A DNA stretch of 30,456 nucleotides from a virus. The notes under the pieces were generated by a model. That model was not told the DNA's origin and did no database searches. It saw only the letters and a program-made list of their open reading frames with translations. Position numbers and translations under genes: made by a program. Positions within the stretch are counted from its first letter, which is position 1. Every line of letters begins with the position of its first letter. Location: positions 1 to 30,456 of IMG/VR virus record IMGVR_UViG_3300021197_001799, one strand, 5' to 3'. This document shows, piece after piece, positions 831 to 6,675 of this stretch.

Positions 831-1337
831 ATGATAATACGCATACAAAACGCCATATCACCAACAGAGGCAGCAGAGCTTTATGATCTGCGCCTTAAAA
901 TAGCAGGCCAGAAGCTACAGGCTGCACACTGGCAGCTTCCAGTGGTACAGAAGATTCTAGATCAAATACAAGCTGCTGTACCTGCAGAGCTTATGCTGGA
1001 GTCACCTAGCTACATATCGCTTGAGCAAAAGACCAGCGGGCACCCTGCACACATTGACGGCTGCCAACAGACGACAGACGGATACATTGATAATCATATG
1101 TCATGGTGTAGCTGGTCTGCTACTCTGCTGGTGTCTGATCCTGCGCTCTGCTCTGGTGGTATCGTGCGATTTGCTGATCAGATCATTCGACCTGCTGATC
1201 ACTACTGCACACTGTACCTGTGGCCATCTCATCCGCGTACAGGATACAGGCCTGTCATGCACTCTGTAGACGCTCACAACGGCTGCAGAGTTGTGTTGTT
1301 ATGTTTCCTAGCACAAAAAGCAATACAGGCCCCGTAA
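831..1337 (+). CDS. 2OG-Fe(II) oxygenase (prolyl 4-hydroxylase-like)
   Basis: A small Fe(II)/2-oxoglutarate dioxygenase of 168 residues. The jelly-roll active-site residues can be placed: iron ligands H74 and D76 in an HID motif, the distal ligand H144 in the segment MHSV, and the 2-oxoglutarate-binding R153 in GCRVVLL, with a GG-x-x-RF strand between them. Such enzymes use 2OG and O2 to hydroxylate a protein or nucleic-acid side chain. The substrate here cannot be told from sequence. I chose the ATG at 831 over an in-frame TTG at 825; neither has a clear Shine-Dalgarno sequence. The stop codon falls in the loop of a hairpin that also terminates the oncoming leftward operon. Confidence 0.82.
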   Translation: MIIRIQNAISPTEAAELYDLRLKIAGQKLQAAHWQLPVVQKILDQIQAAVPAELMLESPSYISLEQKTSGHPAHIDGCQQTTDGYIDNHMSWCSWSATLLVSDPALCSGGIVRFADQIIRPADHYCTLYLWPSHPRTGYRPVMHSVDAHNGCRVVLLCFLAQKAIQAP

Positions 1338-1352
1338 GGCCTGTATGTGGTT
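1311..1352 (-). terminator. Bidirectional terminator between converging genes
   Basis: A 9-bp stem (1323-1331 with 1338-1346, ATACAGGCC/GGCCTGTAT) is followed on the minus strand by UAUUGCUUUUUG, a good intrinsic terminator for the leftward gene ending at 1385. On the plus strand it is followed by only a weak GUGGUUUUAUU tract. The same hairpin and the same U-tract occur at 2176-2205, and a version without the U-tract sits before two of the hammerhead ribozymes. Confidence 0.85.
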
Positions 1353-1384: not shown

Positions 1385-1750
1385 TTAAATTTCGTTTTGC
1401 CATTCAAGCTCGCTTTGAGCGATCTCTTTTTGGCGATTTTGAATCCGTCGCGATCGCTCATTAAAGAGCATATCAACGACAGCTTCATTATTTTCTTTTA
1501 TTGCTTTAACAAGTGCACTATCCAATATATCATTAGATGCATTTTTTAAGTCGCAGATCGTGTCATAGAATGGAATACCACCATTGTTATCTACAAAACC
1601 GATCCAGTGGGCCTGTAGTCGCTTTGTGTCTGTGCAGTGCTCAGATAATCGATGAGTACCCGTAGCACCCTTCATGATGTAATTGTCACCGACTAGCTCT
1701 AGTGTGCACGTGTGGCCTGTTGTTGTCGTGATCATTATTGGCAATTTCAT
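1385..1750 (-). CDS. Hypothetical early protein, 121 aa
   Basis: No family recognised. The N-terminus looks like a small beta-rich unit (MITTTTGHTCTLELVGDNYIMKGATGTH) and the C-terminus is acidic, helical and rich in Glu, Asn and Arg (ENNEAVVDMLFNERSRRIQ). The frame is open for 20 codons upstream, but that stretch is the hammerhead ribozyme and leader. The true start is the ATG at 1750, which has AAAGGA at good spacing. It is the second gene of the two-gene operon driven from the promoter at 2127-2156, and it is separated from the first gene by ribozyme A. Confidence 0.75.
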   Translation of the reverse strand: MKLPIMITTTTGHTCTLELVGDNYIMKGATGTHRLSEHCTDTKRLQAHWIGFVDNNGGIPFYDTICDLKNASNDILDSALVKAIKENNEAVVDMLFNERSRRIQNRQKEIAQSELEWQNEI

Positions 1751-1774
1751 TTTTTCATTCCTTTGTAGTTTGTA

Positions 1775-1825
1775 GCTGTTTCGTCCTTTTGGACTCATCA
1801 GTGACGGCACACACCGCCAGACAGC
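1775..1825 (-). ncRNA. Type III hammerhead ribozyme A
   Basis: Read on the minus strand. Stem III is GCUGU (1825-1821) with ACAGC (1779-1775). The cleavage triplet is GUC with the cut after C1820. Stem I is UGGCGG (1819-1814) with CCGUCA (1807-1802) closed by the loop UGUGUG. The core CUGAUGA follows, then stem II GUCC-AAAA-GGAC with the canonical G10.1-C11.1 pair, then GAAA. Every invariant hammerhead core base is present. It ends about 25 bases before the ATG of the 121-aa gene, so cleavage would give that mRNA its own 5'-OH end. A GGCCC-CACG-GGGCC hairpin (1826-1839) lies directly upstream and would become the 3' end of the preceding mRNA. Confidence 0.93.
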
Positions 1826-1848
1826 GGCCCCGTGGGGCCTGTGTGTGG

Positions 1849-2082
1849 TTAGATAGAAGCGTAAAGTTTAGATATTGCAACAGTAGCTGGCTGATTGTTA
1901 TCGAAAATAACTTTTAAAATTGATTCGATGTTTTCATTGATAAAGTTGTAAATATCTTCTGTTGTTGTTGAGTCAGTATCAAAATAATTACGCCTAACAA
2001 TTTCTGCCATTGATCGAGTGGCGACCATGTTGATAAAAGTGTTTTTGTATTCAGTGTTTTTGTTTAATAGTTCGTAGGTCAT
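1849..2082 (-). CDS. Hypothetical early protein, 77 aa
   Basis: An acidic, Asn-rich 77-residue protein (MTYELLNKNTEYKNTF...) with no recognised family; the C-terminal half looks helical. The ATG at 2082 has the leader CUACAAAGGA shared by the early genes of this region. Eleven further in-frame upstream codons are untranslated leader by comparison with the predicted transcription start near 2120. It is the first gene of its operon. Its stop codon UAA runs straight into CCACACACAGGCCCC, the hairpin element that precedes ribozyme A. Confidence 0.72.
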   Translation of the reverse strand: MTYELLNKNTEYKNTFINMVATRSMAEIVRRNYFDTDSTTTEDIYNFINENIESILKVIFDNNQPATVAISKLYASI

Positions 2083-2105
2083 TTTGTTTTTTCCTTTGTA
2101 GTTAC

Positions 2106-2156
2106 ACAGAGTCATTCTGTACAGACATTCTATCTGTGTCTGTTGTCATTTGTCAA
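2106..2156 (-). promoter_or_regulatory. Early leftward promoter with 5' hairpin
   Basis: A near-consensus sigma70-type promoter on the minus strand: TTGACA at 2156-2151, 18-bp spacer, TAGAAT at 2132-2127. The predicted start is near 2120, exactly where a small hairpin ACAGA-AUGAC-UCUGU (2120-2106) begins. The mRNA would therefore start with a stem-loop. The arrangement closely matches the promoter at 3582-3632. Confidence 0.82.
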
Positions 2157-2175
2157 CAATAAAATCAATTAATAC

Positions 2176-2205
2176 AAAAAGCAATACAGGCCCCGTAGGG
2201 CCTGT
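2176..2205 (-). terminator. Intrinsic terminator after the DUF2786 gene
   Basis: The hairpin ACAGGCCC-UACG-GGGCCUGU (2205-2186) has a UNCG-type tetraloop closed by C-G. UAUUGCUUUUUG follows on the minus strand. It ends the three-gene operon that starts at the promoter near 3600 and lies just upstream of the next promoter. Confidence 0.88.
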
Positions 2206-2230
2206 GTGTGGTTCTTTCAAGGTTTGATCG

Positions 2231-2956
2231 CTACCTTAGACTCTTTCGATCACCACCAGCGATCCCACGATTAACGCGGATCTTTTTTCCGTCCGCGTAC
2301 CCTCGATCAGAGTGCGTATAGCTTTTTGATGGCTTGCCTTTATTAAATGAGTAAGCAGATCGCGCCCAACTTTCAGCTATGTCATAGCGTCTGCTCAGTA
2401 TCAAAGCAGTAGATCCGCGCCCACTGCCGCTGTGTATGTCAGCTTCACGCTCTGCGCGCTCCTTTTGCTGGTTTAAATATGCAATAAAACCACGCACTGC
2501 GCTATCTCTGTATTCCTTACCACTGATAAACATGAAGCTCCTTTCCGGTAGCTCTCCTACCTCATTCAAATATTCTTGTTTAAGCTCGGCTGCGTACACA
2601 GCCCAGCCCGATTTAATCTGGTTTTTAGCAGCTTCAAATGTATATTCCGCGATCACACGATCCTGTAGATCACCGTATAAATACATATGACTGCGCGTTT
2701 TAGCAGCGAAAACACTGCTAAACTTGCAAATAGCAAAAAAGAGCTTGCGCTCCCAGCCTACAGCAGCACACTTGACCTTTGTACGCCCCATCTGGACGGC
2801 TTGACGATCTCCAGCGTCCAGATCTGCCTGTGTTATGGCATGCTGTGCCATAAGCCGAGCTACGGCCCTTGCTGCGTTCTCTGCTTCGCCACCTGTACCC
2901 ACAGCCGCGAGCTTTTTCGCGGCTTGAATTTTTCGTATTATTTTGTCTTTTGTCAT
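2231..2956 (-). CDS. DUF2786 domain protein
   Basis: A 241-residue protein. The N-terminal 40 residues (KIIRKIQAAKKLAAVGTGGEAENAARAVARLMAQHAIT) match the DUF2786 pattern of two helices around a G-x-x-x-EA-x-NA turn. A longer C-terminal region continues as in other phage members of this group: a mid-region FFAICKFSSVFAA and a basic Arg/Ser/Lys-rich tail. The function of the family is not established. The start at 2956 has AAAGGA; the 23 in-frame codons upstream are ribozyme B and leader. It is the third and last gene of the operon from 3560, closed by the terminator at 2176-2205. A 20-bp segment in its C-terminal coding part is duplicated at 3338-3357. Confidence 0.85.
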   Translation of the reverse strand: MTKDKIIRKIQAAKKLAAVGTGGEAENAARAVARLMAQHAITQADLDAGDRQAVQMGRTKVKCAAVGWERKLFFAICKFSSVFAAKTRSHMYLYGDLQDRVIAEYTFEAAKNQIKSGWAVYAAELKQEYLNEVGELPERSFMFISGKEYRDSAVRGFIAYLNQQKERAEREADIHSGSGRGSTALILSRRYDIAESWARSAYSFNKGKPSKSYTHSDRGYADGKKIRVNRGIAGGDRKSLR

Positions 2957-2980
2957 TTTTTCATTCCTTTGTAGTTTGTA

Positions 2981-3031
2981 GCTGTTTCGTCTTTTTAGAC
3001 TCTTCAGGTGGGCCACACAGCCCACGACAGC
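2981..3031 (-). ncRNA. Type III hammerhead ribozyme B
   Basis: Read on the minus strand. Stem III is (G)CUGU with ACAG(C) (3031-3027 with 2985-2981). The cleavage triplet is GUC with the cut after C3026. Stem I is GUGGGC (3025-3020) with GCCCAC (3013-3008), loop UGUGUG. The core is CUGAAGA (N7 = A), stem II is GUCU-AAAA-AGAC, then GAAA. Compared with ribozymes A and C, stems I and II differ by compensating changes while the core and the stem I loop are unchanged. This is strong evidence for a conserved RNA structure. It sits directly before the Shine-Dalgarno sequence of the DUF2786 gene. The hairpin CAGGCCC-UACG-GGGCCUG (3048-3031) abuts it upstream. Confidence 0.94.
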
Positions 3032-3055
3032 AGGCCCCGTAGGGCCTGTGTGTGG

Positions 3056-3241
3056 TTAGTTGTTACAATGTGTGCCATATGGCACACCATCCGAAAGCTC
3101 ATCTAATCGAGACTCAAATTCTTCTATTACACGATCATATTTTTGGTCGTATTCAGCCTGTAAATTTGAAAGAAAGTGCTCATAAATTTTTCTAAGCAAT
3201 TGCTCATCAGTAATAAACTGTAAAAAAGCCATATTTTTCAT
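3056..3241 (-). CDS. Small acidic helical early protein, 61 aa
   Basis: A 61-residue, mostly helical, acidic protein (MKNMAFLQFITDEQLLRKIYEHFLSNLQAEYDQKYDRVIEEFESRLDELSDG...) with a likely short coiled coil in the middle. No family recognised. The ATG at 3241 is preceded by AAAGGA; the longer frame upstream overlaps ribozyme C and is untranslated. It is the second gene of the operon from 3560, flanked by ribozyme C upstream and ribozyme B downstream. Its stop codon UAA is followed immediately by the CCACACACAGGCCC hairpin element. Confidence 0.75.
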   Translation of the reverse strand: MKNMAFLQFITDEQLLRKIYEHFLSNLQAEYDQKYDRVIEEFESRLDELSDGVPYGTHCNN

Positions 3242-3264
3242 TTTTCGTTCCTTTGTAGTTTGTA

Positions 3265-3315
3265 GCTGTTTCGTCCTTTTGGACTCATCAGTAGCGGCAC
3301 ACACCGCCAGACAGG
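3265..3315 (-). ncRNA. Type III hammerhead ribozyme C
   Basis: Read on the minus strand. Stem III has 4 bp, CUGU (3314-3311) with ACAG (3269-3266). The cleavage triplet is GUC with the cut after C3310. Stem I is UGGCGG (3309-3304) with CCGCUA (3297-3292), including one G-U pair, loop UGUGUG. The core is CUGAUGA, stem II is GUCC-AAAA-GGAC, then GAAA. A different hairpin, GCUGGGA-UAA-UCCCAGC (3331-3315), takes the place of the GGCCC hairpin upstream. It lies between the 72-aa and the 61-aa genes. Confidence 0.92.
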
Positions 3316-3341
3316 CTGGGATTATCCCAGCATTCCAACGA

Positions 3342-3560
3342 TTAACGCGGATCTTTTATGTAGCTCTGTATTGCTAAAAATATCTTTCCAATATTGGTAT
3401 TCCATAGCTTATGAAAAGTAGCAGGAGCATTAATCCTGCGCCAGCCATTACAAACTTCACCATACAAATGATACGGTGACGACGGATAAACGGCATAGCG
3501 GAATCCGTCAGCTTGAAGCACATACTTAGCTCCCTGTTTTTTGATCTTATAAGATTTCAT
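3342..3560 (-). CDS. Hypothetical early protein, 72 aa
   Basis: A basic, Tyr-rich 72-residue protein (MKSYKIKKQGAKYVLQADGFRYAVYPSSPYHLYGEVCNGWRRI...) with no recognised family. It is the first gene of a three-gene leftward operon. The ATG has AAAGGA 7 bases upstream. The last codons and the stop lie in a 20-bp segment that is also present in the C-terminal part of the DUF2786 gene in another reading frame, so the present C-terminus (YIKDPR) was probably created by recombination. Confidence 0.72.
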   Translation of the reverse strand: MKSYKIKKQGAKYVLQADGFRYAVYPSSPYHLYGEVCNGWRRINAPATFHKLWNTNIGKIFLAIQSYIKDPR

Positions 3561-3581: not shown

Positions 3582-3632
3582 ACAGAATCATTCTGTATTG
3601 ACATTGTATCTGTGTCTGTTGTCTTTTGTCAA
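3582..3632 (-). promoter_or_regulatory. Early leftward promoter with 5' hairpin
   Basis: TTGACA (3632-3627), 18-bp spacer and TACAAT (3608-3603) on the minus strand, a near-consensus promoter. The predicted start near 3596 coincides with a hairpin ACAGAA-UGA-UUCUGU (3596-3582), followed by the leader GAAACUACAAAGG and the 72-aa gene. It closely matches the promoter at 2106-2156. Confidence 0.84.
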
Positions 3633-3640
3633 CAATAAAA

Positions 3641-3912
3641 TGAATTTATCTGGCTAACCTCTGGCCATAGGTTGGACAGGTTAGACACCTGCACACATTA
3701 CCCGCGCACAGGGGAGCTTCTTTTGTTGTCTTTTGTAGCTGGCTAACCTGTCACCAAAAAAAGCTAATTTATTGGTTTTTGCACATTTGTGCATTTTCTG
3801 TTTTTGTTTAGTTTTAGGTTGGACAGGTTAGACAGGTTGGACAGATCATCTGGTAGCCGGTCGAAAGTAGCTGGCTAACCTATGGCCAGAGGTTGGACAG
3901 GTTAGACAGGTT
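3641..3912. repeat. Iteron cluster and palindromes, probable replication origin
   Basis: No gene is seen here. The unit GGTTRGACA occurs in tandem runs at 3670-3687, 3817-3844 and 3891-3912, with one inverted copy at 3741-3752 (GGCTAACCTGTC). The palindromic block AACCTCTGGCCATAGGTT at 3656-3673 recurs at 3877-3894 as its exact reverse complement. A palindrome TGCACA-TT-TGTGCA lies at 3780-3793. Tandem iterons beside an AT-rich segment and a primase-helicase gene are typical of initiator-bound origins. The initiator itself is not identified; the primase at 4408-6615 is a candidate. Confidence 0.7.
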
Positions 3913-3970
3913 GCGTTTTGTTACAGTGTCTTAAATGTGTAGTATTCTCAAAACTAAAAAAACTAAAATG

Positions 3971-4102
3971 CTTCATTCTCAGGTACCCACCGCCCGCAGA
4001 TCAAGCCACAGTGGGGGATCTCAGGTACCCTCAACAGGTTGCGTTTTGACAACCCCCTGTGTGTGTTCATACATTGAAGCATTAAAACGGCTTAGAATCG
4101 AT
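3971..4102 (+). repeat. 132-bp repeat R1 with rightward promoter
   Basis: The first of four copies of a 132-bp element, read on the plus strand. It starts with CTTC and ends with ATCGAT. It has two CAGGTACCC boxes, a hairpin-capable AGATC/GATCT segment between them, then ACAGGTTGCGTTTTGACA. The promoter is TTGACA at 4046-4051, an 18-bp spacer and TACATT at 4070-4075. The predicted transcript would start just before a TTAAAACG/CGTTTTAA stem. It points rightward into a region without plus-strand genes and then antisense to the primase gene. Confidence 0.8.
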
Positions 4103-4117
4103 CCTCGTTCGTTTTAA

Positions 4118-4189
4118 AGGTATACAGTTTTAAGTGGCATAAAATTATAATATAGTTAGCTTATTTAATACCATAAAATGTGTATACCT
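4118..4189. repeat. AT-rich segment bounded by a 9-bp inverted repeat
   Basis: AGGTATACA (4118-4126) and TGTATACCT (4181-4189) enclose 54 bases of nearly pure A+T between R1 and R2. This is the kind of easily melted segment expected at a replication origin (inference). The right arm overlaps the first two bases of R2. Confidence 0.6.
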
Positions 4190-4319
4190 TCATTCTCAGG
4201 CACCCACCGCCGGCAGATCAAGCCACAGCGGGGGATCTCAGGTACCCGCTACAGGTTGCGTTTTGACAACCCCATCTGTGTGTTCATACATTGGAGACAT
4301 TAAAACGCTCAGAATCGAT
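4188..4319 (+). repeat. 132-bp repeat R2 with rightward promoter
   Basis: The second copy, in the same orientation as R1 and the same length. The promoter is TTGACA at 4263-4268, an 18-bp spacer and TACATT at 4287-4292. The predicted RNA start near 4299 is followed by a stem AAACGCTCA (4303-4311) with TGAGCGTTT (4323-4331). It ends about 90 bases from the stop codon of the converging primase gene. Confidence 0.8.
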
Positions 4320-6637: not shown

Positions 6638-6675
6638 GGGGCTGTCGCACACACGGCAGCCCCTTTTGTGTTTAT
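6638..6675 (+). terminator. Hairpin: rightward terminator and leftward leader stem
   Basis: GGGGCTG (6638-6644) pairs with CAGCCCC (6657-6663), and TTTTGTGTTT follows on the plus strand. That makes a good terminator for any rightward transcript, such as antisense RNA from R1/R2. On the minus strand the same sequence is the leader of the primase gene: a stem with an inner CG-UGUGUG-CG loop, directly before the Shine-Dalgarno sequence. The UGUGUG loop equals that of stem I in the hammerhead ribozymes, but the catalytic core is missing. Confidence 0.65.

Follow-up and report, generated by a model that had tools for sequence, protein, structure and literature searches.

The window analysed here is the whole length (30,456 bases) of the IMG/VR virus record IMGVR_UViG_3300021197_001799. 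It carries genes of a tailed phage (terminase, major head protein, tape measure protein, helicase/primase, RusA, an Erf-like recombinase and a methyltransferase) and is probably close to complete, since contigs with related terminases (57-59% identity) measure 28-30 kb when they are long. Open reading frames were called mechanically. The locus discussed here consists of two minus-strand operons, A (two genes) and B (three genes), which are termed early from their position and are exactly delimited by two promoters and two terminators. Operon B starts with a promoter (TTGACA-18-TACAAT, 3603..3632; 11/12 in a consensus scan) and a leader hairpin predicted by folding (ACAGAAUGAUUCUGU, 3582..3596) at the putative transcript start, placed 7 nt past the -10 box. 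Its genes encode proteins of 72 aa (3342..3560, no PHROGs or Pfam match), 61 aa (3056..3241, from the open reading frame) and 241 aa (2231..2956), the last being a DUF2786/DUF7168 protein (PHROG 421, E = 6e-25; PF23771 and PF10979). The operon ends at an intrinsic terminator called by the terminator scan (ACAGGCCCUACGGGGCCUGU-AUUGCUUUUU, 2186..2205). Operon A has the same layout: a promoter (TTGACA-18-TAGAAT, 2127..2156; 11/12), a leader hairpin from folding (ACAGAAUGACUCUGU, 2106..2120) at the predicted transcript start, a 77-aa gene weakly similar to an integrase N-terminal domain (1849..2082; PHROG 5830, E = 6e-4; Pfam below cut-off), a 121-aa gene without PHROGs or Pfam family (1385..1750) and an intrinsic terminator (1323..1346) recognised both by the terminator scan and as a repeat of the terminator module described below. 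The promoter regions of the two operons are 88% identical.

Beyond operon B, the region 3650-4300 contains near-identical blocks at about 3970-4070 and 4190-4290, composed of CATTCTCAGG.ACCCACCGCC.GCAGATCAAGCCACAG.GGGGGATCTCAGGTACCC and both preceding a plus-strand TTGACA-18-TACATT, as well as GGTTGGACAGGTTAGACAGGTT motifs repeated at 3650-3920. Lying between the early operons and the helicase, this region may serve as an operator or an origin.

Type III hammerheads in the operon junctions

All the internal junctions of both operons are occupied by hammerhead ribozymes. When the whole window was compared with all 4227 Rfam families (cmscan), the three best matches were to RF00008 (Hammerhead_3), all of them full length (1-54 of 54) and on the minus strand: HHR1 (1773..1827; 43.9 bits, E = 1.2e-6), HHR2 (2979..3033; 39.4 bits, E = 2.4e-5) and HHR3 (3263..3317; 38.2 bits, E = 5.2e-5), the last also found by a descriptor. 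No further Rfam match with E < 1 was obtained in the window, the next best having E = 1. The original prediction of a type III hammerhead in each junction is thereby borne out, and the gene ends and starts that it gave (1849/1750, 3056/2956 and 3342/3241) are correct by the positions of the open reading frames. In the covariance-model check that it proposed, the three sites are the top matches, but at 38-44 bits none of them reaches the RF00008 gathering score of 48.5 bits. All the hammerheads in 37 other virus contigs with a UGUGUG loop likewise miss this score. A gathering threshold in Rfam is a curation limit and does not correspond to any biochemical feature.

The core elements announced for these ribozymes were all found: the GUC cleavage triplet, CUGAUGA or CUGAAGA (predicted as CUGANGA), GAAA, stem III CUGU/ACAG, loop I UGUGUG and loop II AAAA. 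The three hammerheads are in gene orientation, exactly between a stop codon and a ribosome-binding site, and the Shine-Dalgarno sequence expected after each of them is present as an SD-like AAAGGA. H17 lies at 1820, 3026 and 3310, so that the predicted cuts (1820/1819, 3026/3025 and 3310/3309) would leave 5'-OH nucleotides at 1819, 3025 and 3309, the same 5' ends as had been proposed. Stem I diverges strongly yet still pairs (GUGGGC/GCCCAC in HHR2, UGGCGG/CCGUCA in HHR1), and one base pair of stem II is altered on both strands. The core does not vary across 71 hammerheads that share one geometry, and their stems I and II are highly variable but paired, with one unpaired cell, although the descriptor that defines this set itself requires at least 3 bp per stem. 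In the same set, UGUGUG or UGAGUG predominates in loop I and AAAA in loop II, the kind of conservation that a loop-loop contact would produce. When the whole HHR2 or HHR3 cassette is folded, the structure of minimum energy differs from the active fold, loop-loop contacts being outside the fold model, and in HHR2 the upstream hairpin is predicted to be able to extend across the CUGU strand of stem III. The three cassettes are mutually 84-85% identical across 85 nt.

Hairpins upstream of the ribozymes

A GC hairpin adjoins the 5' side of each ribozyme of the window, upstream of stem III. At HHR3 it is GCUGGGAUAAUCCCAGC (3315..3331, minus strand), a 7-bp stem found by folding (z = -3.7 against shuffles) that abuts stem III; at HHR2, CAGGCCCUACGGGGCCUG (3031..3048, minus strand) also abuts stem III, and GGCCCCACGGGGCC (1826..1839, minus strand) stands upstream of HHR1. 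The hairpins of HHR1 and HHR2, identified by repeat and alignment, correspond to a terminator module without its U-tract: they consist of CAGGCCCYACGGGGCCUG or its core, preceded by AACCACACACA, and the identical module is found in both operon terminators. After the hairpin, the terminators run on as AUUGCUUUUU and the junctions as CUGUC, which is the first strand of the ribozyme. A U-tract, the criterion for an intrinsic terminator, thus follows the hairpin in none of the three junctions, yet does so at both operon ends. The HHR3 hairpin is unrelated in sequence and occupies an equivalent position. From its sequence, this arrangement appears to be one 3'-end hairpin coupled to two end-forming devices, a U-tract at the operon ends and a ribozyme at the junctions. 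The original description of the junctions, right about the ribozymes, had omitted the upstream GC hairpin, the common terminator module and the existence of a further early junction on the minus strand that has a hairpin but no hammerhead, that between RusA and the helicase.

This RusA/helicase junction (RusA 6672, helicase start 6615, minus strand) has a strong hairpin, GGGGCUGCCGUGUGUGCGACAGCCCC, with a GUGUGU loop and no hammerhead core, followed by a GCUACAAAGGA leader as in the hammerhead cassettes; read on the plus strand, it is a strong terminator (6638-6663). It is possibly a hammerhead-free version or a remnant of the junction cassette. A 31-nt direct repeat (90%) is also present at 2256-2286, in the 3' coding end of the DUF2786 gene (in another reading frame), and at 3327-3357, at the 3' end of the 72-aa gene before HHR3. 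It looks like a trace of the recombination that built the HHR3 junction.

The association between hairpin and ribozyme was surveyed in hammerheads gathered from IMG/VR and from eight bacterial or candidate-phylum genome contigs with patterns blind to the flanking sequence. The hairpin criterion was strict (a perfect stem of at least 5 bp with at least 4 GC, ending beside stem III); a looser folding measure was dropped because it misses clear hairpins such as that of HHR1 itself. Such hairpins were found upstream of 76 of the 129 nonredundant type III hammerheads, almost all from phages. The background is far lower: 9.7 are expected from dinucleotide shuffles, and hairpins were found at 41 of 600 gene ends without hammerhead in the same contigs and in 26 of 848 random windows. 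The gap between hairpin and stem III is 0 nt in 49 of the 76 cases and at most 2 nt in 67. When a stop codon lies within the 80 nt upstream the hairpin is present at 68 of 90 sites, compared with 8 of 39 sites without such a stop, and type III sites with an upstream gene that were retrieved by a loop-independent pattern have it in 44 of 63 cases; about a quarter of the type III hammerheads with an upstream gene fail the strict test. Near-identical ribozymes bear hairpins that differ in sequence and maintain their pairing. Since the 8 nt 3' of the hairpin typically hold 1-4 T, most of them from the CUGUC of stem III, the type III junction hairpins are not ordinary terminators.

The permutation of the hammerhead determines what is left on the upstream product. 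After cleavage of a type III hammerhead, this product retains only a single stem III strand from the ribozyme and so lacks an intrinsic hairpin, whereas in types I and II a closed stem III remains at its end. If a hairpin-capped 3' end matters, only type III would therefore need a separate hairpin. A pattern scan provided 173 nonredundant type II sites, with 35 type I sites from the same contigs. A separate upstream hairpin was found at 14 of the type II and 3 of the type I sites, and within 2 nt at only 5/173 and 1/35; for hairpins with a gap of 0-2 nt, the comparison of types III and II gives a Fisher p of 9e-25. The median distance from the stop codon to the ribozyme is 2 nt in types I and II and 32 nt in type III, and the fraction of sites at most 15 nt from the stop is 0.71, 0.70 and 0.07 for types I, II and III. 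Their own stem III hairpin reaches -6 kcal/mol or better in 97% of the type II sites. The descriptors are home-made and demand perfect stems, limits that should hit all types alike as the same hairpin measure was applied to all; the contrast persists with stricter stems, other thresholds and one hammerhead per contig. A survey of types I, II and III in 274 bacterial genomes gave too few matches for a comparison of abundance. In contig L125 (4218-4300), a type III hammerhead directly adjoins an upstream type I and lacks a separate hairpin, the stem III of the type I occupying that place. The idea that a stem I hairpin is universally required at the 5' end of the downstream mRNA was rejected: type I hammerheads leave none, yet they occupy phage junctions.

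Possible roles of the junction cassettes

Judging from these architectures, cleavage would leave the upstream mRNA with a terminal hairpin in all three permutations. The best explanation for the window, and one that we consider probable, is that the hammerheads create hairpin-capped mRNA 3' ends at the junctions. Each cassette would consist of a GC hairpin, a type III hammerhead and a ribosome-binding site. Because the hairpin has no U-tract, transcription would not be expected to stop there and would read through the junction. The hammerhead would cut between stem III and stem I, and the upstream mRNA would end in the hairpin and some six further nucleotides (..CUGUC) carrying a cyclic phosphate, resembling a 3' end made by a terminator; this terminal hairpin would make it resistant to 3'-to-5' exonucleases. 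The downstream mRNA would begin with a 5'-OH and the stem I hairpin, its ribosome-binding site being open. The two operons could in this way give rise to five single-gene mRNAs, all closed by hairpins at both ends since the first genes also appear to begin with a small leader hairpin, and a separate mRNA level could be set for each gene. Single-gene mRNAs with 5'-OH and cyclic-phosphate ends, as originally predicted, would be compatible with the sequence and with precedent. We infer the cleavage of the three window RNAs, the stabilisation of the mRNAs, their protection from exonucleases and a benefit for the phage. With regard to phages in general, we lean towards the view that hammerheads are 3'-end-forming modules equivalent to terminators, in which the permutation sets the architecture: types I and II would start at the stop codon and be capped by their own stem III, and type III would recruit a terminator-like hairpin.

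Several other scenarios may explain the cassettes. One possibility is that the hairpin is a folding insulator which shields the ribozyme from pairing with the upstream coding RNA and contributes nothing to mRNA stability. Stem III indeed has a short, easily mispaired 5' strand, and the hairpin abuts this stem directly (gap of 0 nt in 49/76). Nevertheless, types I and II expose a 5' strand too (of stem I or II) and have a hairpin within 2 nt in only 1/35 and 5/173 cases, the hairpin is rarer at sites without a preceding gene (8/39) although upstream RNA also exists there, and in the window it is the terminator module itself; a mere insulator seems unlikely. This last observation, that an identical hairpin sequence acts as intrinsic terminator at both operon ends, could instead suggest an attenuator or terminator, in which a partial stop would grade expression and the ribozyme would be secondary. 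Yet the junctions have no U-tract, the 1-4 T of the next 8 nt coming mostly from the CUGUC of stem III, and the terminator scan of the window called none of the minus-strand junctions, which leaves this reading quite improbable.

Alternatively, cleavage could be followed by religation, the common stem III joining the ends of different junctions to produce circles of the 61-aa gene or 'spliced' RNAs. The identity of stem III (CUGU/ACAG) in the three hammerheads would allow it, and HHR3 and HHR2 flank a single small gene in a manner comparable to the paired hammerheads that yield circular RNAs. We find it very unlikely, as stem III varies within other contigs with multiple hammerheads (L081, L107, L130) and spliced or circular products were sought by Perreault et al. 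and none was found (PMC3088659). Finally, the 84-85% identity of the cassettes across 85 nt and the contigs with related terminases that show no hammerhead could be taken to mean that the cassettes spread as passive repeats, or survive as remnants, without benefit to the phage. This is hardly credible: the pairing of stems I and II has been maintained despite changes between copies, all three cassettes have the orientation of the genes and a position precisely between stop codon and ribosome-binding site, and the hairpin-topology rule holds over phages with different flanking genes.

Distribution and known hammerhead systems

Hammerheads are absent from the 41 contigs with a related terminase (55-99% identity), of which seven measure 28-30 kb and many are fragments without the early region. 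Given this absence, they would seem to be dispensable for the terminase-related group, and the lack of hammerheads in these relatives together with the similarity of the three cassettes suggests that the latter were recently acquired and duplicated in this lineage. Exact patterns for hairpin plus hammerhead and for the stretch from hammerhead to ribosome-binding site had no match among the IMG/VR records available to the search, the early region had no DNA match in the phage DNA collection, and a protein scan with the DUF2786 gene found no relative; the same scan with the helicase retrieved one 43% relative, without hammerhead.

Many phage contigs have 2-9 consecutive hammerhead junctions. In IMGVR_UViG_3300038412_000035 (L281), nine type II hammerheads lie along a run of about ten small genes and fill almost all the junctions between them, and eight matches to Rfam RF02276 have E < 0.1. 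This contig and others (L248, L253, L016, L130, L091 and L106) resemble the window in their consecutive intergenic hammerheads in gene orientation; they differ in representing other phages with other genes (anti-restriction protein, HNH endonuclease, ATPase), and types I and II have no separate hairpin. The recurrent neighbours of about 320 aa had raised the possibility that hammerheads flank the major capsid gene, which was rejected, these neighbours being anti-restriction, HNH, ATPase or unknown proteins. Genes for anti-restriction proteins (PHROG 7245) lie directly downstream of a hammerhead in two further phages, L033 and L126, comparable to the link between ardA and hammerheads of Perreault et al. 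2011. Hammerheads with the UGUGUG loop were also observed in Patescibacteria/Saccharibacteria genome bins (L080, L082, L084, L085 and L086), with at most four per bin; these contigs are likely phages or prophages of CPR hosts.

The original claim of knowing no described phage operon in which every intergenic junction is self-cleaving is contradicted by Perreault et al. 2011 (PMC3088659), and many other phage contigs also have hammerheads at consecutive junctions: hammerheads at the junctions of a phage operon are an already known arrangement. In that study, hammerheads flank single genes in prophages, their processing to single-gene mRNAs was proposed, and cleavage was demonstrated in vitro and, for the A. 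tumefaciens triple, in E. coli. A text search of the same paper found neither a 3'-end hairpin beside the ribozyme nor a dependence on the hammerhead permutation, and the open-access papers searched mention neither; the novelty of the hairpin/permutation rule is provisional and concerns the open-access literature. What hammerheads do in bacteria and phages was described as an open question in 2017 (PMC6155905), and why they are associated with certain genes was termed 'still unknown' in 2023 (PMC10085705). Extending over all three permutations and many phages, the hairpin rule points to selection for the formation of mRNA 3' ends. If this is true, the cassette would be a natural cleave-and-cap part, working without termination, for splitting operons in engineered bacteria.

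The window hammerheads agree with Rfam RF00008 in core, stems, topology and full length, with scores below gathering, and their loop pair UGUGUG/AAAA is common to many phage hammerheads. The HHphage of haloviruses HF1/HF2, for which the mapped mRNA 5' end is at most three nucleotides from the cleavage site (PMC3088659), similarly lies immediately upstream of an early phage gene, but it has a variant core and forms a single site before the first gene, with no chain of junctions. As in clustered phage hammerheads, several ribozymes of the same orientation flank single genes in the window, within a virus record that encodes a terminase, a major head protein and a tape measure protein. A close parallel is with the prophage clusters (the A. 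tumefaciens ardA triple, C. scindens and A. caulinodans; PMC3088659), which likewise have several hammerheads around single genes in one transcription unit; the window differs from them in that the hairpin module of HHR1 and HHR2 doubles as the operon terminator hairpin.
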